Source: Bacteroidales bacterium (GTDB lineage Bacteria > Bacteroidota > Bacteroidia > Bacteroidales > P3). Taken from it: a DNA stretch of 33,274 nucleotides. This document shows positions 17,338 through 29,393 of this stretch, in pieces. Location: the NCBI GenBank assembly GCA_017479705.1, contig JAFVCA010000046.1:1-33274 (forward strand). The letters are read 5' to 3'. Both the position numbers and the translations under genes were made by a program. The notes beneath the pieces are model-generated. The model was not told where the DNA came from. It ran no database searches and saw nothing but the letters and a program-made list of their open reading frames with translations. Numbering within the stretch: the first letter of the stretch is position 1; each line of letters starts with the position of its first letter.

Positions 17338-18150
17338 ATGAAATATCATATACTATTCTTCCTGTTTGTGGCCATGCTTTTCCAGTGTCAGGCCAAGAGG
17401 GAACCCGCCTGGATGCGCGAGCTACCCAAGCCAGGCAATGAGACCTACATCTACGTGCGCGAGTCCGGCGAAGGTTCCACCGTCAACAGTGCCCTTGCCC
17501 AGGCCATGGTGAGAGTGTTCCAAAGCACTGCCAACCGCTTGGGGCAGCCCTTCGATGCACAGAAGGTGGCCGAGGCTCTCAATGCCGGCACAGACTATCA
17601 GACCATCTCTAAGGAGTACGCAGTGCCCGTAAACCGTGTGGGCATCTACTCTACCCAACTTACCAATGGCAATTGGTGGGTCTACGTGCTGTGCCAGGTG
17701 GCTGCCATGGGCAACGTCGAACCCGTCTGGGACCGCCTGGGCCTCACCTCCACAGCTGAAAATTTCGTCGCTCTTGCCAAATCCGTCTTCGTGCCCGGAT
17801 GGGGCCAAATGAGCAAGGACCATGTTGCCGAAGGCCTCCTCACCCTTGCCGGTGAAGCGGTGCTGATTGGGGGTGGAGTAGCAACCTACCGTGTTGCCCA
17901 GCAGCAGCTCTCCATCATGCGTGCCAACAACGGCGATGTGGCCGAGTTCGCAAAGGCCACCCAGACCTACAACACCATGCAGACCCTCTCCTACGTGGCA
18001 TGGGGCATGGCCGGCACGCTCTACGTCTTCAACATTGTCCGTGCCATCACCGTTCAGCCCAAAACTCCTTTCGACCTGACTCTTGCACCCTCGCTCATTG
18101 CCACTCCGCAAACAGCTGTCCCCACCTTCGGTTTAACCCTTAGATTCTGA
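17338..18150 (+). CDS. DUF5683-like predicted envelope protein
   Basis: The frame is open from 17173, but the start at 17338 gives a clean signal peptide (MKYHILFFLFVAMLFQCQA). The upstream part is a shadow of the acetyltransferase gene. The 270-residue product has an N-terminal region with MRELPKPGNETYIYVRESGEG, then a segment FVPGWGQMSKDHVAEGLLTLAGEAVLIGGG. The latter resembles the GxGQ-type membrane hairpin of DUF5683 proteins, and two or three hydrophobic spans are predicted by eye. No enzyme motif is visible. It lies 22 bases after the acetyltransferase, so it is probably co-transcribed. Function unknown. Confidence 0.75.
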   Translation: MKYHILFFLFVAMLFQCQAKREPAWMRELPKPGNETYIYVRESGEGSTVNSALAQAMVRVFQSTANRLGQPFDAQKVAEALNAGTDYQTISKEYAVPVNRVGIYSTQLTNGNWWVYVLCQVAAMGNVEPVWDRLGLTSTAENFVALAKSVFVPGWGQMSKDHVAEGLLTLAGEAVLIGGGVATYRVAQQQLSIMRANNGDVAEFAKATQTYNTMQTLSYVAWGMAGTLYVFNIVRAITVQPKTPFDLTLAPSLIATPQTAVPTFGLTLRF

Positions 18151-18216
18151 ATTCAAATCGAATTGTGGGCATGATTCCTGAGTTCAAACAAACGAATTAA
18201 CACATAACGAATTTCT

Positions 18217-19470
18217 ATGCGCCGTAAAATATATCTATTGTTCATCGCCTTGTCGGTCTTGACGCTGGGTCTCCAATCGTGTGTCAAAGACTTGGTGCAG
18301 GAGGGCATCTACGTGACCACACGCTACTATGGCGTGATACAGGACATGCACACCCTCCAGCCGCTTGCCGGCATGAAGGTCGTCTCCACCAATGGCGACA
18401 ACGTGAAGGAAACAGTCTATACGGACTACGACGGCTCCTTCTCCATCAATATGACAGTCCAACAACTCAACGAGGGCTATTTCCTCTCCATCCAGCCCGA
18501 CTCCCTCTACCAAGGCCAGAACATCTACTTGGACCGTGTCTCATTGGGAGTAGAAAGCTACAATATCGGTGTCATCAAAATCAAAGGCCCCACAGTGCCC
18601 GTACTCACCACCGGGAATGCGACGGACATCACCGCATCGTCTGCCCGTCTGCACGGCAGCGTCTCGGCCAACGGCAACGCTACCATCAGTGAGTGCGGCT
18701 TTGTGTACGACGTGGTGCAGTATCCCACCATCGAGAACCACAAGGTGGTCTCCTCCATCAACAATGGCAGTATCGATGCCCAGGTACAGCTTCTCCCCAA
18801 CACCACTTACTACGTGCGTGCCTTCGCCCGCAACAGCATCGGCATAGGCTATGGCCAACAGATTGCTTTCCGCACCCTCGACGGGCTGCCCACCATTGCC
18901 AACACCACCGTCTTCAACATCAAGTCCACTCGTGCCACCTGTTCCGGCAGCTTCCTCTCCGACGGAGGGTTTGCCATCACTGCCCGCGGCATCTGCTGGA
19001 GCACTTCCCCCGACCCCACTGTCGACAACCTTCACATCAACCTGGGCACAGGCATCGGCGACTTCGAAACCGACCTGACCAACCTGCAGCCCAACACCAC
19101 CTACTACCTCCGTGCCTACGCCCGCAACACATCGGGCATCGCCTACAGCGAACCCTGCATCTTCACCACCCTGAACGGTTACCCCACGGTTGTCACCACC
19201 CTTGTCTCCGACATCACAAGCCAGAGTGCCATCGCGGGCGGCAACGTCACCGACGACGGCGACTTCCCCATCCTCCAACGCGGCGTATGCTTCAGCACCT
19301 CGCCCCTTCCCACCACGGCCGGCAACCACACCACCGACGGTGCTGGCACAGGCTCCTTTGTCAGCCACCTGTCCAACCTGAGCCCCGGCACCACCTACTA
19401 CTACCGTGCTTACGCCACCAACATCATTGGCACCACCTACGGCGAACAGTTCATCTTTGTTACCCAATAA
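18217..19470 (+). CDS. Surface lipoprotein with carboxypeptidase-regulatory-like and FN3-like domains
   Basis: The 417-residue product has a lipoprotein signal peptide ending in GLQSC. Residues about 38-125 resemble a carboxypeptidase-regulatory-like beta domain (YYGVIQDMHTLQPLAGMKVV ... YTDYDGSFSINM). Three FN3-like modules of about 95-100 residues follow. Each ends in a motif of the form L-x-P-(N/G)-T-T-Y-Y-x-R-A-(F/Y)-A-x-N, for example LQPNTTYYLRAYARN and LSPGTTYYYRAYATN. No catalytic motif is visible. It probably sits on the cell surface or in the periplasm and serves in adhesion or display. It ends 18 bases before the giant BspA-like gene. Codons strongly favour C at the third position, as in that neighbour. 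Confidence 0.85.
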   Translation: MRRKIYLLFIALSVLTLGLQSCVKDLVQEGIYVTTRYYGVIQDMHTLQPLAGMKVVSTNGDNVKETVYTDYDGSFSINMTVQQLNEGYFLSIQPDSLYQGQNIYLDRVSLGVESYNIGVIKIKGPTVPVLTTGNATDITASSARLHGSVSANGNATISECGFVYDVVQYPTIENHKVVSSINNGSIDAQVQLLPNTTYYVRAFARNSIGIGYGQQIAFRTLDGLPTIANTTVFNIKSTRATCSGSFLSDGGFAITARGICWSTSPDPTVDNLHINLGTGIGDFETDLTNLQPNTTYYLRAYARNTSGIAYSEPCIFTTLNGYPTVVTTLVSDITSQSAIAGGNVTDDGDFPILQRGVCFSTSPLPTTAGNHTTDGAGTGSFVSHLSNLSPGTTYYYRAYATNIIGTTYGEQFIFVTQ

Positions 19471-19488
19471 TCGATAAGCCCATCCACA

Positions 19489-22400
19489 ATGAAGAGAAGT
19501 ACCATTGTCAAGACCCTGCTGTTGCTGCTTTTTGCAGCAGCCCAACATAATCTCTCTGCTGCCGATTTCTCCGCCGTTTGCAGCAGCGGACAGCGTATAT
19601 ACTACAACATCCTATCCGACTCCACAGTAACCGTCACCTACCCGCGGCTCTCCAACAACAACTATTACTACGGCTACACCAAACCCTCTGGCAGCATGAC
19701 CATTCCCGCCACCGTTGTCCACGGTTCCACCACCTATCGTGTCATCTCCATCGGGGCCAATGCCTTCCACACCTGCACCAACCTCACCTCCGTCTCCATC
19801 CCCACCTCCGTCACCGTCATCAGCGACGGAGCCTTCAACCATTGTAGCGGCCTCACCTCCATCGCCATTCCCCAAACCGTAATTACCATTGGCGTAGGAG
19901 CCTTTCAGGGTTGCAGCGGCCTTGTCACCGCCCAGCTGGGTGCCAACATCGGCATCATCGGCAGCGTTGCCTTCGAGGGCTGCACCTCCCTCCGTGCGGT
20001 CACCATCCCCAACTCCGTCACCATTCTTGGCAACTGGGCTTTCAGCAACTGCTCCTCGCTCGACACACTCACCATCGGAACCTCCCTCAGCCAAATATCC
20101 CACAGCGTCTTTGCCGGCTGCAACAACGTGCGCCGCATCCACTACAACGCCGTCAACGCCGTCTGCAGCTACATGACCAGTGGCGGCTACCAGTCCTCAC
20201 TCCCCGTCAGCTCTCTCCACTCCCTTGTTATTGGCGACAGCGTGCAAACCCTCCACTCCTACTCTTTCACCAACGCCACCCTCCTCGACTCCGTCACCAT
20301 CGGCCTCAGCCTCACCACCATCGACACCTGTGCCTTTGTCGGATGCAGCAATGTCCATCACCTCAGCTACAATGCTGTCAACTGCTCCGATGCCTCTTTC
20401 TGCTCAACGCAAGGCAGCACCCCTTCCCATGCCTTCCGCCCCTTCACCCAACTCTCCTCGTTAGCCCTTGGCAGCAGTGTGATCCGCGTCCCCTCCTACG
20501 CCTTCTACGGCATGACGGGCCTCACCTCCCTCCTCCTCCCGCAATCCCTCCAGGCCATTGGCAACCACAGTTTCGCCCAGTGCCACAATATCAACACCCA
20601 GCTCCTTCTGCCCAACGCCCTTGCCTCCATTGGCAGCTATGCCTTCCAGGGCTGCTCCCGCCTCAACTCCACACTCCAGTTCCCCGCCAGTCTGACCACC
20701 CTCGGCACCGGGGCTTTCCGCGACTGCGACAGCATCTTCTTCCTCAACACCGGCACCTCCCCTGCGGCCATCCCCGCCGAAGCCTTCTATGGCTGCGACC
20801 GCCTGTTCCAAATCACCATCGGCAACAACACACCCTCCATCGGCGACTCCGCTTTCTTCAACTGCACGCGCCTCACCTCCGCCACTCTTGGCAGTGCGCT
20901 CGCCGCCGTTGGCAACAACGCCTTCCGTGGCTGCTACCGTCTTGTCACGCCCCTTTTCCCTCACTCCCTCGCCACCATCGGCTCCAACGCCTTCTATGGC
21001 TGCTCCCTCTTGGGTGGGCAACTGACGTTCCCCGCCTCCGTCTCCTACATCGGCAACGGGGCCTTCACCAACACTGCCGAAATCGCCACCATCACCATGC
21101 TGGGCAGCACACCTCCCACCATCTCCTCCGGCACCTTCGGCTCCGCCTCCGCCTCCACCCATGTTTTTGTCCCCTGCGGCGCACTCCTTGCCTACTTCAT
21201 GGCCGACTACTGGGAAAACTTCACCAACCTCACCGAAACCTCGCCCTACAACCTCACCCTCTACGTCAACAACTCCATCATGGGCAGCGCCGCTGTCACC
21301 CAGCAGCCCAGCTGCACCAGCTCCGTCGCCATCATACAGGCCACAGCCAACACCGACTATCACTTCCTCCGCTGGAACGACGGCAACACCGCCAATCCCC
21401 GCACCCTCAACATCAATTCCGACACCACCTTCACGGCCCACTTCGTCTCCGACTACTCCTACATCACCGTCACCTGCAACGACTCCACCCGTGGATCCGT
21501 CTCCGGCACCGGCCTTTACAGCTACAATGCCACGGCCACCCTCACCGCCACTCCGCTTGCCGGCTTCCATTTCCAGCGTTGGACCGACGGCAATACCGAC
21601 AATCCGCGCCTCGTCACCGCCACGCAGGATTCGCTCTTCACCGCCATCTTCCTCTCCAACAACTCCACCATCACCGTCCTCAACAACAACCCCGCCATGG
21701 GTACCGCCAGCGGCGGCGGCAACTACTACTACCAGAACCAAGCCGTCATCTCCGCCACACCCTTCGCGGGCCATCATTTCACCTTCTGGAACGACGGTGT
21801 CACCACCAATCCCCGCACCATCGTCGTCTCGCAGGACTCCACCTTCACTGCCAACTTTGCCGTCAACCTCTACACCGTCACCGCCACCAGCAACAACAAC
21901 ACCATGGGCTCCGTCACCGGCGGTGGCAGCTACAACTACCTCACCACCGTTGAACTCACCGCCACAGCCTTCTTTGGCCATCATTTTGTTCAATGGAGCG
22001 ACGGCATCACCACCAATCCCCGCTCATTCCAAGTCACGGCGGACACCGCCTTCACCGCCATCTTTACCCCCAACACCTACACCGTCCAAGTCCTCTCCAA
22101 CGACACCTCCATGGGCGTCGTCTACGGCGGTGGCACCTACAATTATGGAGCCACGGCAAACCTCTCCGCCACGGCCGTTTACGGATCCCATTTCGTCCAG
22201 TGGAGCGACGGCAGCACTGACAATCCCCGTTCCCTCACCGTCACCGGCAACACCACCCTCACAGCCATGTTTGCCGTCAACACCTACTCCCTCACCGTGC
22301 TCAGCAACAACAACACCATGGGCACCGTCTCCGGCTCAGGCACCTACGCCCACAACACACCCGTCAACATCACCGCCCAGGCCAACTACGGCTACCACTT

Positions 22401-23961
22401 TGACAGCTGGAACGACGGCGACACCAGCAATCCGCGCCTCATCACCATGACCCACGACGCCACCTACACCGCCCTCTTCGCCCTCAACACCTATACCGTC
22501 ACCGCCATCAGCGCCAACAGCGCCTATGGCACCGTCAGCGGCAGTGGCACCTACAACTATAATTCGCCCGCACTCATCTCTGCCACACCCTTCTACGGCT
22601 ACCACTTTGTCCAATGGAACGACGGCAACACCGACAACCCACGTACCATTGTCGTCACCGAGGACATGGGCTTCACCGCCCTCTTTGCCATCAACACCTA
22701 CACCGTCACCGCCAACAGCAACTCGCCCGTCCGCGGCTCCGTCACCGGTGGCGGCTCCTACAACTACCAGTCCGTCGTCACCCTCACCGCACTGCCCGCT
22801 GACCACCACCACTTCCTCCAGTGGGACGATGCCGACACCAACAACCCCCGCACCCTTACCGTCATTTCCGACACCTCCTTCACTGCCCAGTTTGTCATTG
22901 ATTCCTACTACGTTGCCGCCACCTCCGTCGACAGCCTCCGCGGCCATGTCGAAGGGGCGGGCACCATAGCCTACGGCACCACCGCCACCCTCACCGCCGT
23001 GCCCAACTACGGCTACTACTTCTCCTCCTGGTCCGACAGCGTCACCCAAAACCCGCGCCCCGTCCTCGTCACCTCCGACACGGCCTTCTCCGCCATCTTC
23101 CTCCCCAACATCTATCAGATCTCCGTCCTCCCCGCGGACACCCTCCAGGGTTCCACCTGCGGCTCCGGCATCTACGAATACGGCACGGAAATCACCATCC
23201 AGGCCTTCGCGGCACCCCACAACTACTTTACCGGCTGGAACGACGGCGTCACCACCAACCCCCGCGTCATCAACGTCTCACGCGACAGCAACATCATAGC
23301 CCTCTTCCAACGTGAGCCCACCTACACCATCACCGTCAACAGCAACGACATCACCATGGGCTCCGTCACCGGCTCCGGCACCTATCTGGCCGGACAGGAA
23401 ATCACCATCACCGCCACCCCCACGCAACACCACCTCTTCAAATATTGGAGTGACGGCAATACCGACAACCCCCGCACCGTCCGCGTGCTGGGCAACACCA
23501 CCTACACAGCCATCTTCGCCCTGCAAACCTTCACCATCCGCGCCACCCCCAACAACACTGACATGGGAGCCGTCTACGGTGCGGGCACCTACAACTTTGG
23601 CGAGCATGCCACCCTGCTGGCACGCCCCTTCCCGGGATTTGCTTTCCGGGAATGGAGCGACGGCAACACCAGCGAGGAACGCTCCATCCTTGTAGACCGC
23701 AACATCACCCTCCAAGCCATCTTCTACAACGCCGTCGGCATTGACCCGGCCGAGACGGAAGGCATCACCGTCCTGACCAATGGGTTGGACATCACCGTCA
23801 ACGGGGCCGAAGGCCGCCGCATCAGCCTGTACGACATCATGGGCCGCCGCATTGCCAGCCAGTCCGCCACCGCCAATGTCCTCAACCTCCGCGTCCCGGC
23901 CGCAGGCATCTATATGCTCCACGTCGACGGCTCCGCCGCCCGCAAGATAGTGGTTCGCTAA
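19489..23961 (+). CDS. Giant BspA-like leucine-rich-repeat and InlB B-repeat surface protein, T9SS cargo
   Basis: The 1490-residue product begins with a Sec signal peptide (KTLLLLLFAAAQHNLSA). Residues about 70-575 carry many BspA-type LRR_5 repeats of the form (T/S)IGxxAFxxCxxLxxxxxP, such as VITIGVGAFQGCSGL. Residues about 585-1412 hold twelve tandem modules of about 69 residues of the divergent InlB B-repeat type, with core HFxxWxDGxTxNPRxxxV and ending TFTAxF. Residues about 1415-1490 form a T9SS type A sorting domain (SLYDIMGRRIAS ... AAGIYMLHVDGSAARKIVVR). It should be exported by T9SS and anchored on the surface, where LRRs of this class typically bind host or bacterial ligands. Function is inferred. 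A strong terminator follows. Confidence 0.9.
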   Translation: MKRSTIVKTLLLLLFAAAQHNLSAADFSAVCSSGQRIYYNILSDSTVTVTYPRLSNNNYYYGYTKPSGSMTIPATVVHGSTTYRVISIGANAFHTCTNLTSVSIPTSVTVISDGAFNHCSGLTSIAIPQTVITIGVGAFQGCSGLVTAQLGANIGIIGSVAFEGCTSLRAVTIPNSVTILGNWAFSNCSSLDTLTIGTSLSQISHSVFAGCNNVRRIHYNAVNAVCSYMTSGGYQSSLPVSSLHSLVIGDSVQTLHSYSFTNATLLDSVTIGLSLTTIDTCAFVGCSNVHHLSYNAVNCSDASFCSTQGSTPSHAFRPFTQLSSLALGSSVIRVPSYAFYGMTGLTSLLLPQSLQAIGNHSFAQCHNINTQLLLPNALASIGSYAFQGCSRLNSTLQFPASLTTLGTGAFRDCDSIFFLNTGTSPAAIPAEAFYGCDRLFQITIGNNTPSIGDSAFFNCTRLTSATLGSALAAVGNNAFRGCYRLVTPLFPHSLATIGSNAFYGCSLLGGQLTFPASVSYIGNGAFTNTAEIATITMLGSTPPTISSGTFGSASASTHVFVPCGALLAYFMADYWENFTNLTETSPYNLTLYVNNSIMGSAAVTQQPSCTSSVAIIQATANTDYHFLRWNDGNTANPRTLNINSDTTFTAHFVSDYSYITVTCNDSTRGSVSGTGLYSYNATATLTATPLAGFHFQRWTDGNTDNPRLVTATQDSLFTAIFLSNNSTITVLNNNPAMGTASGGGNYYYQNQAVISATPFAGHHFTFWNDGVTTNPRTIVVSQDSTFTANFAVNLYTVTATSNNNTMGSVTGGGSYNYLTTVELTATAFFGHHFVQWSDGITTNPRSFQVTADTAFTAIFTPNTYTVQVLSNDTSMGVVYGGGTYNYGATANLSATAVYGSHFVQWSDGSTDNPRSLTVTGNTTLTAMFAVNTYSLTVLSNNNTMGTVSGSGTYAHNTPVNITAQANYGYHFDSWNDGDTSNPRLITMTHDATYTALFALNTYTVTAISANSAYGTVSGSGTYNYNSPALISATPFYGYHFVQWNDGNTDNPRTIVVTEDMGFTALFAINTYTVTANSNSPVRGSVTGGGSYNYQSVVTLTALPADHHHFLQWDDADTNNPRTLTVISDTSFTAQFVIDSYYVAATSVDSLRGHVEGAGTIAYGTTATLTAVPNYGYYFSSWSDSVTQNPRPVLVTSDTAFSAIFLPNIYQISVLPADTLQGSTCGSGIYEYGTEITIQAFAAPHNYFTGWNDGVTTNPRVINVSRDSNIIALFQREPTYTITVNSNDITMGSVTGSGTYLAGQEITITATPTQHHLFKYWSDGNTDNPRTVRVLGNTTYTAIFALQTFTIRATPNNTDMGAVYGAGTYNFGEHATLLARPFPGFAFREWSDGNTSEERSILVDRNITLQAIFYNAVGIDPAETEGITVLTNGLDITVNGAEGRRISLYDIMGRRIASQSATANVLNLRVPAAGIYMLHVDGSAARKIVVR
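21241..23725 (+). repeat. Twelve tandem InlB B-repeat-like modules (about 207 bases each)
   Basis: The modules start at about residue 585 of the BspA-like protein and run back to back without linkers. Conserved positions are an initial Tyr-x-Val/Leu-x-V, then MGSVxGxGxYNY, HFxxWxDG, NPR, and the end TxFTAxF. The first and last copies are the most divergent; copies 3-8 are the most alike. This looks like expansion from inside the array. Confidence 0.88.
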
Positions 23962-25394: not shown

Positions 25395-25422
25395 GACGTG
25401 GCAAAAAAATATTTGCCATGTC
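25395..25422. repeat. Inverted repeat between patatin gene and riboswitch promoter
   Basis: GACGTGGCAAA and TTTGCCATGTC form an 11-base-pair stem with one G-U pair and a 6-base loop, 12 bases after the patatin stop. The right arm contains the TTTG that serves as the candidate -33 element of the next promoter. The sequence after it is AT-rich but not a clean T-tract. It may be a weak terminator or an operator. Confidence 0.5.
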
Positions 25423-25442
25423 GGAAATAATTTGTATTTTTG
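25412..25442 (+). promoter_or_regulatory. sigma-ABfr promoter for the cobalamin-riboswitch transcript
   Basis: TTTG at 25412-25415 and TATTTTTG at 25435-25442 are separated by 19 bases, matching the Bacteroidetes -33/-7 arrangement. Transcription would begin near 25449, just at the 5' edge of the riboswitch. Confidence 0.75.
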
Positions 25443-25448
25443 CATTCG

Positions 25449-25625
25449 ATTTGGTCGCCCTACGGGGCGTGAAAAGGGAATCAGGTGAGAGTCCTGAACA
25501 GTCCCGCTGCTGTGAGTTCAGTAGTTTGCGAATCAACGACAGTGCCACTGCACACCGCCGCAGATGTGTGGGAAGGCCGATTCGCAAAGAACGAGTCAGA
25601 AGACCTGCCAGATCATACAATATCG
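25449..25625 (+). promoter_or_regulatory. Cobalamin (B12) riboswitch
   Basis: The leader contains the conserved elements in order: GGGAATCAGGTGAGAGTCC, then CAGTCCCGCTGCTGTGA, then the B12 box GCCACTG ... GGGAAGGC (about 25542-25578), then GAGTCAGAAGACCTGCC (about 25593-25609). These are the hallmarks of cobalamin riboswitches, which bind adenosyl- or other cobalamins and usually lower expression when the ligand is plentiful. The only gene before the next strong terminator is the large surface protein starting at 25789. Exact boundaries are approximate. Confidence 0.95.
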
Positions 25626-25650
25626 GCTCACTTTCGAGGAAAAAGTGTCC

Positions 25651-25704
25651 GAGAAACAGATGTGGCAGGGTGCGGAGTGGAACGTTCCCGCAGTGCTGTT
25701 TCTC
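25651..25704 (+). promoter_or_regulatory. Candidate riboswitch expression platform hairpin
   Basis: GAGAAACAG (25651-25659) pairs perfectly with CTGTTTCTC (25696-25704). The enclosed part contains the palindrome GGAACGTTCC. A pyrimidine-rich stretch (TTTTCTCCTCTTT) begins a few bases later, at about 25713. This may act as a ligand-dependent terminator, but the T-tract is interrupted. Confidence 0.5.
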
Positions 25705-25788
25705 CGTATGGTTTTCTCCTCTTTATGTGTCGCCGATACTGGATGGTAGAGTAATAGAATTTATTAACTATTAAAACAGTATCATAAA

Positions 25789-28700
25789 ATGGTAAAAAAA
25801 CTATTAGTGCTAATTGCAAGTGTAGCCATGGGATGGAGCCTCGCGGCCCAGCATCCTGTTGACGCTACAATTGACACCAGCGACATCCTGTACTGGGTGG
25901 GTACGGGTAGCAATCGGGCTGTACTGATTGTGAACTGGGCCGACCCCGACACGGCGCTGGCCTGGGGTTTCCGTTTCAACGGGACCGTGTCGGCACAGAC
26001 CATGGTGGACAGCATCGAGGCTGCCGACCCGCGGTTCTGGACCGTTGGCTCGCCTTCCTATAATGGCGACATCCACTTCCTGCTGTCCAATGGCGACACC
26101 TTAGGATTGGTGGACGGCTCGACCCTCCCGTTGGGTTTTAACTTCTGGTGGACCAACATCAATGGCGTGAGCGCCGGCAGCGGGGCTGCCACCTCACTGC
26201 ACAACGGCGATGTGTTCAAATATGGCGACCAGAGCAATGGCGTCGGCTGGGACCCCATGGGAACATACTTCATGGAGTATGCCTGGCTGAAGACTCCCAC
26301 ACCTGTGCCCGTGCCTGGCAGCGACACTGAGACACCCACCGATGCCACTATCGACACTGCCGACATCCTTTACTGGGTGGGCACTGGCAGCAACAAGCTG
26401 ACCTTTGTGGTGAACTGGGCGGACACCGCCTTAGCTTGGGGCTACCGCTTCAACACCGAGAGCGTTACCATGCCCACGGTGATCAACGACCTGGCTGCCG
26501 CCGACCCCCGTCTGACCTTTGGCACAACGGGTATGCTGGACGACATCTGGTTTGTCGAAAACAACGACACCCTGAAGCTTACTCCCGGCAACTACTGGGA
26601 GCACTCCCTGAATGGCCTCATGTCCGCCGGAATGGGCACAACGATGCATGACGGCGATTTCAGCCGCTGGGCCGACCCCGCTGGCGGCGTGGCCGTGGAC
26701 AGCTTCTACTATGACGGCTGGGGATGGTTCTACACCTATGCCTATCCCGCCACTATCTACCCCGTTTCCATCCCCTCTAACGATCCCCCTGTTGAGGATG
26801 CCACTATCGACACTGCCGACTTGGTGTACTGGGTGGGCACTGGCAGCAACGCGCTGACCTTTGTGGTGAATTGGGCGGACACCGCCCTGGCTTGGGGCTA
26901 CCGCTTCAACTCCGACAGCGTGCGGCTGAGCACGGTAATGAATCATATTGCCGCAGTTGACCCCCGTTTCAGCTACACAGGTACCAGCATGGTGAGCGAC
27001 ATCAACTTTATTGCAAACGGCGACACGCTGGGCATCACCCCCGGCAACTGGTGGAGCCATTATCTGAACGGCACCACATCGGCCGGTATGAACCAGTGGA
27101 TGCACAATGGCGACTTCAGCCGTTGGGCCGACCCTGCCGCCGGCGTGGTGGTGGACAGCGTCTACCACGAGGAATGGAACGGCTGGATGGAATACATCTA
27201 TGTCTATCCGCAGACCATTACCCCCGTCAACAAGGCCGTTTCCCCTGTTGATGCTTTAAGACCCGAGGACATCCGCTTCTGGGTAGGTGAGGGCGATAAA
27301 GAAATCATCCTCGCTGTGAGCTGGCCCGACACATCATTGGCCTGGGGCTACCGCTATAGTACAGACCGTGATATCACCTACGACCATGAATTGACAGTCA
27401 GAAATGGCGACACCCTTATTTCTATCAATTATATTATTGAAGAAATTGATAGAGTCGATTCTCGTTTCTTCTCTCGCTGGCCAAATGGTCGTGGCGGTGG
27501 CGTCAATCCTCCCGAACGTCCTTATGTTATCGCTCATAAAATCCCTGCTGGTCCTCCTCCATTTGGAATTAATCCTCCTTACCATCCTCGTTTTGATCGA
27601 AAAGATGGTGGTAATGTGGCACAATATGGTTTATTCTTTGTCGAGAATGGAGATACCTTGTCTGGCAGTGCCATGAATGGCTCTTCTTGGGAAGTGAAAG
27701 TAAATGGATATGATGCTAATTTCGAACCTTATGTGCCCATAAATGAAAAAAATCAACTTGACCTTGGTTGGGCTGTTTACTATGCCTATGCGAGAGAAGG
27801 CTCAATAATACATTGTTTTGATACCTCTACCATTGGCCGAGTGATGCATGATTCCATTGGCCAAGAAGTATATTACTTCCCGCAAGAGGTTACCCCTGTG
27901 GCTCCCACCAACGCTGCTATCACTTCTAACGAGATTGAATACTGGATTGGCGAGGGCGAGAACAAGGTTATCTTCGTGGTGAACTGGGCCGACACGGCTT
28001 TGGCTTGGGGCTACCGCTTTGCAAGCGACAGCGTGACACTGGCCACGATGATGGACGACATCGCTGCTGCCGACAGCCGCTTCAGCTACAGTGGCGAGGG
28101 GATGGTGAACGACATCAACTTCATCGAGTATGGCGACACCCTCGGCATCACCCCCGGCAACTGGTGGGAACACTCCATCAACGGCATCTCCTCTATGGGC
28201 ATGGGCCAGTGGTTCCACAATGGCGACATGAGCCGTTGGGCCGACCCCGCAGCCGGAATCGTTGTGGACAGCTTCTACTATGACGGCTGGGGATGGCTCT
28301 ACACGTATGTATACCCCCGCATGATTCACCCCGTGAGCGACCCCAACGCCGAAGGCCCCTTCTGCGGCATTGTTGGCACTGAGGGCTGCACGGCCATTGC
28401 CTTGGACGACAGCCGCATCAAGGCTTGGGCTACGGGCTGCACCGTGGTGCGCGGTTCGAGCAACCTGAGCGACCCTGACGCTGCCGATGTTTCATACGGC
28501 GAAGAGTCCGCCGGTGTGGGTCCCGCCTCGACGAGCACCCTTGATGCCGTCAGCTTGGGCGACGGCGGCATGGCCACCCTCACCTTTGACACTCCTATTG
28601 CCAATGGTTCCGGATTCGACTTTGCCGTGTTTGAGAACTCGTTCGACGACTATTTCTTAGAGCTGGCTTTCGTAGAGGTGAGCTCCGACGGTGAGCATTT

Positions 28701-29277
28701 TGTCCGCTTCCCCGCCACATCGCTCACCCAGACCCGCGCACAGATTGGCGGTCTGGGCCGCGTGGATGCTACCTATATCAACAACCTGGCCGGTAAATAC
28801 CGCGTGGGCTACGGCACTCCGTTCGATCTGGAAGAGCTCCGCGACAGCGCCAACCTCGACATCAACAGTATCACCCATGTGCGCATCATTGATGTGGTGG
28901 GCAGCATCGACCCCCAGTACGGCACCTACGACGCTTTCGGCCACATCATCAACGACCCCTTCCCCACAATCTCCCACAGCGCCGGTTTCGACCTGGAGGG
29001 TGTCTGCGTCCTGAACCAGCACGGAGTAGGCATCAACGACGTTGAGGCCACTACGCTGAACCTCTACCCCAACCCTGCCCGCAACGTGGTCAGCCTCACC
29101 CTGAAGGCTGAAGCCGCTGGCACCGTGGCCGTCTACGACATGACGGGCCGCCAGGTGCTGACGCTCCCCGTGCAGGCCGGCACCTCCACCGTCCGCATCA
29201 ACACCGCTGACATGCCCAACGGCGTGTACATGGTGAGCTTCGGAAACCATGTGGAGAAACTGGTGGTACGCCACTAA
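25789..29277 (+). CDS. Cobalamin-riboswitch-controlled T9SS cargo protein with five repeated domains
   Basis: The 1162-residue product has a signal peptide ending LAAQ. Five related domains of about 150 residues follow (starting near 25, 185, 337, 487 and 706). Each opens with the pattern YWVGTGSNxxxxVVNWADTALAWGYRF; most contain PGNxWxHxLNG and end with an aromatic stretch such as YDGWGWFYTY. Domain 4 is divergent and longer. Residues about 858-1080 form a distinct beta-rich domain (FDFAVFENSFDD ... LAFVEVSSDGEHFVRFP), recalling jelly-roll carbohydrate/ligand-binding folds. Residues about 1083-1162 are a T9SS type A sorting domain (NLYPNPARNVVSL ... MPNGVYMVSF). I infer a surface-anchored protein made when cobalamin is scarce, possibly capturing corrinoids. 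No TonB receptor is adjacent. Function is not established. Confidence 0.85.
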   Translation: MVKKLLVLIASVAMGWSLAAQHPVDATIDTSDILYWVGTGSNRAVLIVNWADPDTALAWGFRFNGTVSAQTMVDSIEAADPRFWTVGSPSYNGDIHFLLSNGDTLGLVDGSTLPLGFNFWWTNINGVSAGSGAATSLHNGDVFKYGDQSNGVGWDPMGTYFMEYAWLKTPTPVPVPGSDTETPTDATIDTADILYWVGTGSNKLTFVVNWADTALAWGYRFNTESVTMPTVINDLAAADPRLTFGTTGMLDDIWFVENNDTLKLTPGNYWEHSLNGLMSAGMGTTMHDGDFSRWADPAGGVAVDSFYYDGWGWFYTYAYPATIYPVSIPSNDPPVEDATIDTADLVYWVGTGSNALTFVVNWADTALAWGYRFNSDSVRLSTVMNHIAAVDPRFSYTGTSMVSDINFIANGDTLGITPGNWWSHYLNGTTSAGMNQWMHNGDFSRWADPAAGVVVDSVYHEEWNGWMEYIYVYPQTITPVNKAVSPVDALRPEDIRFWVGEGDKEIILAVSWPDTSLAWGYRYSTDRDITYDHELTVRNGDTLISINYIIEEIDRVDSRFFSRWPNGRGGGVNPPERPYVIAHKIPAGPPPFGINPPYHPRFDRKDGGNVAQYGLFFVENGDTLSGSAMNGSSWEVKVNGYDANFEPYVPINEKNQLDLGWAVYYAYAREGSIIHCFDTSTIGRVMHDSIGQEVYYFPQEVTPVAPTNAAITSNEIEYWIGEGENKVIFVVNWADTALAWGYRFASDSVTLATMMDDIAAADSRFSYSGEGMVNDINFIEYGDTLGITPGNWWEHSINGISSMGMGQWFHNGDMSRWADPAAGIVVDSFYYDGWGWLYTYVYPRMIHPVSDPNAEGPFCGIVGTEGCTAIALDDSRIKAWATGCTVVRGSSNLSDPDAADVSYGEESAGVGPASTSTLDAVSLGDGGMATLTFDTPIANGSGFDFAVFENSFDDYFLELAFVEVSSDGEHFVRFPATSLTQTRAQIGGLGRVDATYINNLAGKYRVGYGTPFDLEELRDSANLDINSITHVRIIDVVGSIDPQYGTYDAFGHIINDPFPTISHSAGFDLEGVCVLNQHGVGINDVEATTLNLYPNPARNVVSLTLKAEAAGTVAVYDMTGRQVLTLPVQAGTSTVRINTADMPNGVYMVSFGNHVEKLVVRH
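25862..28350 (+). repeat. Five-copy repeated domain region in the riboswitch-controlled gene
   Basis: Copies begin near 25862, 26341, 26797, 27248 and 27904. Copies 2 and 3 are nearly identical in DNA across their first 110 bases or so (26341-26454 against 26797-26910), and copies 2 and 5 share a near-identical stretch at the end (about 26698 and 28267). Copy 4 differs strongly in sequence and in base composition. Confidence 0.85.
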
Positions 29278-29312
29278 TTAACAAGAAGTCTCATTATCAA
29301 CCATTAATGCCG

Positions 29313-29345
29313 AGCGGTCGCTCGTGAGAGCGACCGCTTATTTTT
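29313..29345 (+). terminator. Intrinsic terminator between the riboswitch-controlled gene and nrdD
   Basis: A perfect 11-base-pair stem (AGCGGTCGCTC with GAGCGACCGCT) with a GTGA tetraloop is followed by a T-rich run (TTATTTTT, counting the last stem bases). It starts 36 bases after the stop codon, so it should separate the B12-regulated gene from nrdDG. Confidence 0.93.
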
Positions 29346-29393
29346 AAAAAAGACAAACCTTTAATCAGTAAGCAACACAACTCAAATACATCT

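Follow-up and report, generated by a model that had tools for sequence, protein, structure and literature searches.

Published surface binders of vitamin B12 in Bacteroidota include BtuG, BtuH, BtuJ and BtuK1; DUF4465, the family of BtuJ, is an experimentally shown B12-binding family (PMC12751083 and PMC13398666), and C-terminal tails of the type IX secretion system (T9SS) on DUF4465 proteins have already been published (PMC12751083). In the animal carriers, one B12 molecule is sandwiched between two domains, as described in PMC1796856, and bacterial transcobalamin-like proteins were predicted in 2007. The DNA considered here, hereafter the window, is a stretch of 33,274 nucleotides (nt) from a Bacteroidales bacterium (assembly GCA_017479705.1, contig JAFVCA010000046.1, positions 1 to 33,274, forward strand), in which a cobalamin riboswitch precedes a gene for a 1162-residue protein with five repeats, a C-terminal globular domain and a T9SS tail. 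Judged from sequence and structural models, this protein probably (roughly 0.83) serves the B12 regulon in corrinoid capture, being secreted and anchored by the T9SS; it is a putative binder. The features, all on the + strand, are as follows.

25412-25442, +: Bacteroidota-type promoter, TTTG-N19-TATTTTTG (pattern match)
25435-25626, +: cobalamin riboswitch aptamer, RF00174 (cmscan, 109.3 bits, E 9.2e-27)
25627-25788, +: leader, presumed expression platform, folded (minimum free energy)
25789-29277, +: gene for the 1162-residue surface protein, with five repeats, BtuH-like domain and T9SS tail (open reading frame, domain searches)
25789-25848, +: signal peptide-like N-terminus, residues 1-20 (read by eye)
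25861-26307, +: repeat R1, transcobalamin beta-domain-like (repeat comparison; fold predicted from the R5 model)
26335-26787, +: repeat R2, transcobalamin beta-domain-like (same basis as R1)
26794-27246, +: repeat R3, transcobalamin beta-domain-like (same basis as R1)
27247-27882, +: repeat R4, residues 487-698, divergent, with an insertion (only its first part matches)
27892-28344, +: repeat R5, transcobalamin beta-domain-like, the modelled copy (AlphaFold2, predicted local distance difference test (pLDDT) 94.5)
28354-29019, +: BtuH-like domain, residues 856-1077, about 220 residues (structural match, profile comparison)
29062-29259, +: T9SS type A sorting domain, residues 1092-1157 (PF18962, Por_Secre_tail, E 2.5e-11; TIGR04183, E 9.6e-11)
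29312-29339, +: terminator-like hairpin (12-pair stem plus T-run)

The corrinoid-trap reading is preferred because the best structural relative of each of the two modules is a B12-binding protein, because both modules, also where they occur separately, are tied to cobalamin riboswitches across families, and because the BtuH-like domain is fused to DUF4465 in two families. An earlier note on this DNA, made from the sequence alone, had described five aromatic-rich repeats without recognising their fold; five copies of about 150 residues were found, four of them clear, R4 being the divergent one that retains W-x4-NG with no GD after it. The structural model of R5 had animal B12 carriers as its best matches, with the transcobalamin beta-domain fold at ranks 1-14 (VIA-align), and by extension from this copy the repeats are predicted to carry the transcobalamin/intrinsic-factor beta-domain fold. 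Pfam PF14478 (DUF4430) matched neither the window protein nor the repeat consensus; at E<=1 it matched 12 of 92 aligned repeats. The repeat was present in 6 of 296 phylum-sample genomes, own included, and five of the six loci outside the own genome had a riboswitch within 6 kb upstream, the sixth lying 1.5 kb from a contig end.

Three further proteins with related domains were seen. In one genome a 262-residue lipoprotein with a single transcobalamin-like repeat (L192:9373-10161, G270) stands behind a riboswitch, btuB, BtuG-type and BtuH series; it had no credible PDB match and may be related to BtuK or BtuL. In another member of the same order a small DUF4430 protein (L173:71-469, G035) heads a cobalamin-assembly cluster (cob genes by eye), and a frame of 5582 codons (L171, G016:C2, about 18000-21957, minus strand) starts with a DUF4430-matching transcobalamin-like repeat.

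The structure prediction of the C-terminal domain had BtuH2 of Bacteroides thetaiotaomicron (BT_1956; PDB 7biz) as its best structural match, placing it in the fold of the B12-binding C-terminal globular domain of BtuH. Homology at the sequence level was indicated by two local hhalign alignments, one of 39 columns (E 6.5e-5, 64%) and one of 51 (E 2.9e-5, 74%). All 22 extra matches of a BtuH profile were records bearing the domain, which amount to 22 of the 154 such records, the window copy not among them. Both domains have a common SLG-GG...DF-V..N-F core and both belong to the B12 regulon, whereas the window domain is shorter and, of the eight named ligand contacts of BtuH2, only Asn399 and Phe401 are aligned, the other six lying outside the aligned part. 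Homology to DUF4465 was not found in a comparison with one protein (E 0.065). Pfam DHQ_synthase matched 16 of the 66 C-terminal domains examined (best E 2.3e-4); this was set aside because the match is short and partial, covering 48 profile positions in the window copy, and because the modelled domain is mostly beta, with beta-sandwich proteins as its matches. The domain also showed a weak match to the LIC_13355 lipoprotein model (E 0.011). It occurred in 17 of the 296 phylum-sample genomes, own included, and 11 of the 16 others had a same-strand riboswitch upstream within about 5 kb.

In other families of the phylum, cobalamin riboswitches precede divergent BtuH-like proteins that adjoin BtuG-type or TonB-receptor genes by eye (L154, L153 and L152 in G046, G319 and G165). 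At L146 and L148 (G244, G260), a weak riboswitch (35-37 bits) is followed by a protein of 190-220 residues resembling, by eye, the substrate-binding component of an energy-coupling factor (ECF) transporter and then by a BtuH-like protein; the ECF-like protein is possibly a different B12 importer partner.

The protein ends in a T9SS sorting domain, as anticipated from its sequence, and the genome has PorP-family genes, which together place it among T9SS type A cargo. Its N-terminus is signal-like, as had also been proposed, by eye only and with no lipobox cysteine, so that the lipoprotein signal of the BtuH family is missing; the domain is termed BtuH-like and the whole protein is not classed as BtuH. 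Apart from the T9SS tail, nothing above noise was obtained in whole-protein searches of Pfam, NCBIfam and PDB, and profile searches of PDB gave no credible match with either the locus alignment A1 (window plus 65 of 80 loci) or the repeat alignment A2 (four window repeats, R4 left out, plus 88 of 102 repeats kept by a redundancy filter). A further alignment, A4, held nine genus rows and 14 others picked by hand; the split reading frames of L086 and L127 were taken unaltered.

The riboswitch called from sequence was confirmed by a covariance-model search, the RF00174 match spanning the full length 1-189 and scoring 109.3 bits, where the gathering score is 31.5 bits. Its 5' end is overlapped by the promoter, which fits the Bacteroidota consensus, and the leader folds at -55.5 kcal/mol (minimum free energy, 25620-25788; no shuffle comparison). 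The claim that the unit has its own promoter gained support from relatives: the -7 part TAnnTTTG was found 120-260 nt upstream of the B12 box in 68 of 68 boxed related loci versus 2 of 68 control segments, and the complete two-box pattern in 33 of 68.

Linkage to riboswitches was surveyed in 41 genomes and in 80 named loci, the best 80 of 380 candidates; the two sets share several contigs, so that their counts overlap and are not independent, and the counts 29/31, 11/16 and 5/6 were made by hand from coordinates. Homologues were found in 31 of the 41 genomes: all 25 members of the genus, the own genome among them, and 6 of the 16 taken from elsewhere in the order. Of these 31, 29 had a same-strand upstream cobalamin riboswitch. 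Among the named loci, a B12 box lay upstream in 68 of 80, with 10 of 10 tested confirmed by Rfam; a box within 700 nt upstream preceded 42 of 65 of the relatives' reading frames versus 21 of 569 others within the loci, where the 21 would include first genes of the same operons.

Several relatives stand directly beside B12 transport genes. The order is riboswitch, btuB, BtuG-type lipoprotein and window-protein relative in L103 (Pfam run), and riboswitch, BtuG-type lipoprotein and relative in L099, L109, L122 and L124 (Pfam on L099, others by eye). In L084, L075, L120 and L126 the riboswitch is followed by a repeat-only protein with a T9SS-like tail and then by a T9SS protein with the C-terminal domain only (by eye). 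The C-terminal-domain protein follows riboswitch, btuB-like and BtuG-type genes in G194, G214 and G061 (names by eye), and riboswitch and a DUF4465 lipoprotein in G040 and G038. In G027 and G034 the riboswitch is followed by a single T9SS-tailed protein in which the C-terminal domain is joined to DUF4465 (E 5e-54 and 1e-53), with btuB-like and BtuG-type genes after it (by eye). G305 and G250 have riboswitch, btuB, BtuG-type and BtuH-like genes, followed by a T9SS-tailed protein that joins one repeat to a DUF5074 propeller (Pfam on G305 only); look-alikes of the G305 protein were seen by eye in G250, G246 and G285. The earlier note had stressed that no transporter is adjacent: none flanks the gene within the window, whereas these relatives adjoin btuB and BtuG-type genes.

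The following points weigh against a corrinoid trap. Two of the 31 genomes have no upstream riboswitch on the matching contigs (G006, at a contig end, and G019), and in G020 the best copy lies at a contig end, the riboswitch-linked copy being a weaker match. Twelve of the 80 loci have no B12 box; in seven of them the reading frame is cut off by the contig edge, L096 begins right at such an edge, and L082 is preceded by a frame that is itself cut off. Of the boxless loci L060, L082, L111 and L118, all searched with Rfam, L060 alone gave a riboswitch, a weak one (36.6 bits), so that L111 and L118 are without one in the DNA examined. For the C-terminal domain, no upstream riboswitch was found in 5 of the 16 distant genomes (G063, G057, G328, G315 and G327), and those of G244 and G260 are weak (37 and 35 bits). 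DUF4430 is rare, with 1 of 296 phylum-sample genomes matching at E<=1e-6 (G215), unlinked to that genome's riboswitch, and the contig of the G016:C2 repeat match has no cobalamin riboswitch.

The genome assembly, 74.7% complete, has two further cobalamin riboswitches, one of which heads a BtuB/BtuG-type pair made up of a TonB receptor and a DUF5074/YncE-type lipoprotein; 12 additional T9SS-tail-like matches and two PorP-family genes were also found. The third riboswitch (L005:15892-16083) precedes an acetyl-CoA hydrolase/transferase gene (L005:14414-15727, minus strand), which may be tied to B12-dependent propionate or succinate metabolism. On the simplest reading, the gene in the window has moved away from the transporter operon and encodes a trap feeding a BtuB/BtuG-type system.

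Under this reading, low intracellular cobalamin would permit expression through the riboswitch, whose aptamer is clear and whose repression by cobalamin is presumed; such repression has been measured for B. thetaiotaomicron riboswitch promoters, as reported in PMC12751083. The tail and the PorP genes suggest that the protein is exported over the outer membrane by the T9SS and retained on the surface, where the beta-domains (five, one degenerate) and the BtuH-like domain would bind cobamides, each domain holding its own molecule or adjacent domains enclosing a shared one. The ligand would then pass to the BtuB/BtuG-type system whose genes follow another cobalamin riboswitch of this genome. There is an even chance that the repeats confer true multivalency.

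The alternative closest to this proposal is that one corrinoid is sandwiched, as in transcobalamin, by a repeat together with its neighbour or with the BtuH-like domain, giving fewer corrinoids than domains. The two modules are adjacent in the window protein, the animal carriers use two domains in this way, and in BtuH2 the lower ligand faces the protein with the upper ligand uncontacted (PMC8941943); nevertheless, the modules are separate proteins of one operon in some relatives, and the title of PDB 5np4 names an isolated human transcobalamin beta-domain with cyanocobalamin, which leaves the sandwich a possible but minority explanation. Slightly less probable, and on balance unlikely, is that only the BtuH-like domain binds corrinoid while the repeats are a stalk or spacer setting the reach from the surface, or bind something else. 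The host proteins vary in repeat number and span roughly 330 to roughly 2550 residues, the C-terminal domain is a separate protein in some loci (L084, L126) and occurs without these repeats in distant genomes (by eye), and R4 is degenerate, all in keeping with a stalk, whereas the modelled fold shared with B12 carriers and the riboswitches preceding repeats outside the genus argue for binding. A B12-regulated surface protein of another role, such as adhesion or vesicle release, re-using these folds is improbable, since two different modules each best match a B12-binding protein and G027 and G034 carry the C-terminal domain in fusion with DUF4465. Finally, B12 riboswitches control B12-independent ribonucleotide reductases and only 116 nt separate the stop codon from nrdD, but service of the downstream nrdDG by read-through, with the surface gene as a passenger, is very improbable and was set aside, with no survey made of riboswitches linked to nrdD, given the 12-pair hairpin in between and the riboswitch accompanying the surface gene across families.

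The putative corrinoid-trap gene is preceded by the riboswitch as a single-gene unit, as originally proposed, with a patatin-like gene on the 5' side and nrdD/nrdG (class III, anaerobic ribonucleotide reductase) beyond the hairpin. The hairpin region (29295-29350) folds at -24.4 kcal/mol; because the scan gave two terminator-like sites in total versus 4.8 in shuffles, the terminator call rests on hairpin length and place. Elsewhere in the window (19489-23961, +) lies a 1490-residue protein that combines BspA-type leucine-rich repeats with nine divergent stretches of InlB B-repeat and carries DUF6383 at its C-terminus.

If the proposal is true, tandem animal-carrier beta-domains plus a BtuH-like domain, exported by the T9SS, would be a new architecture for B12 capture in Bacteroidota, joining two B12-binding inventions, the transcobalamin type and the BtuH type, in one polypeptide, and a function would be suggested for a family present in 25 of 25 genus genomes searched. 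Many named relatives carry rumen, omasum, deer, yak or horse sample names. It is an evenly balanced question whether T9SS proteins with rows of intrinsic-factor-type domains serve gut Bacteroidota as multivalent surface traps, every such protein holding several cobamides; in animal hosts they could compete with the host carriers of the same fold. Multivalent surface storage of a scarce vitamin is made directly testable by the proposal.

The earlier note had proposed a surface corrinoid-capture protein different from BtuG and BtuH. Capture is supported by domain folds and conserved operon context, binding being predicted, whereas the separation from these proteins was too sharp, the C-terminal domain being BtuH-like and relatives within the family showing linkage to btuB and BtuG-type genes. 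BtuG lipoproteins (beta-propeller, DUF5074/YncE-like) are encoded in the same operons as the relatives, whereas Pfam found no propeller in the window protein. BtuH2 is a lipoprotein with PKD domains (other BtuH proteins have a beta-propeller or none), whereas the window protein has a T9SS tail and transcobalamin-like repeats. BtuJ and other DUF4465 proteins (IPR027828) are, according to PMC12751083 and PMC13398666, secreted or surface B12 binders, many with T9SS tails like the window protein, whereas PF14717 (DUF4465) had no match in the window protein or its genome at the above completeness and was found in 1 of 25 genomes of the genus. Compared with the beta-domain of transcobalamin, intrinsic factor and haptocorrin and with bacterial DUF4430 (the transcobalamin-like SLBB clade), the window repeats form a tandem array in a T9SS protein, have extra C-terminal strands and no alpha/alpha toroid domain by Pfam, and are mostly under Pfam detection in sequence. 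In a literature search covering only a minority of subscription papers, none was found that deals with transcobalamin-type repeats or BtuH-like domains in T9SS proteins. Surface B12 binders themselves are known; new, as far as the literature searched goes, is a T9SS cargo in which tandem transcobalamin-type domains are combined with a BtuH-like one.

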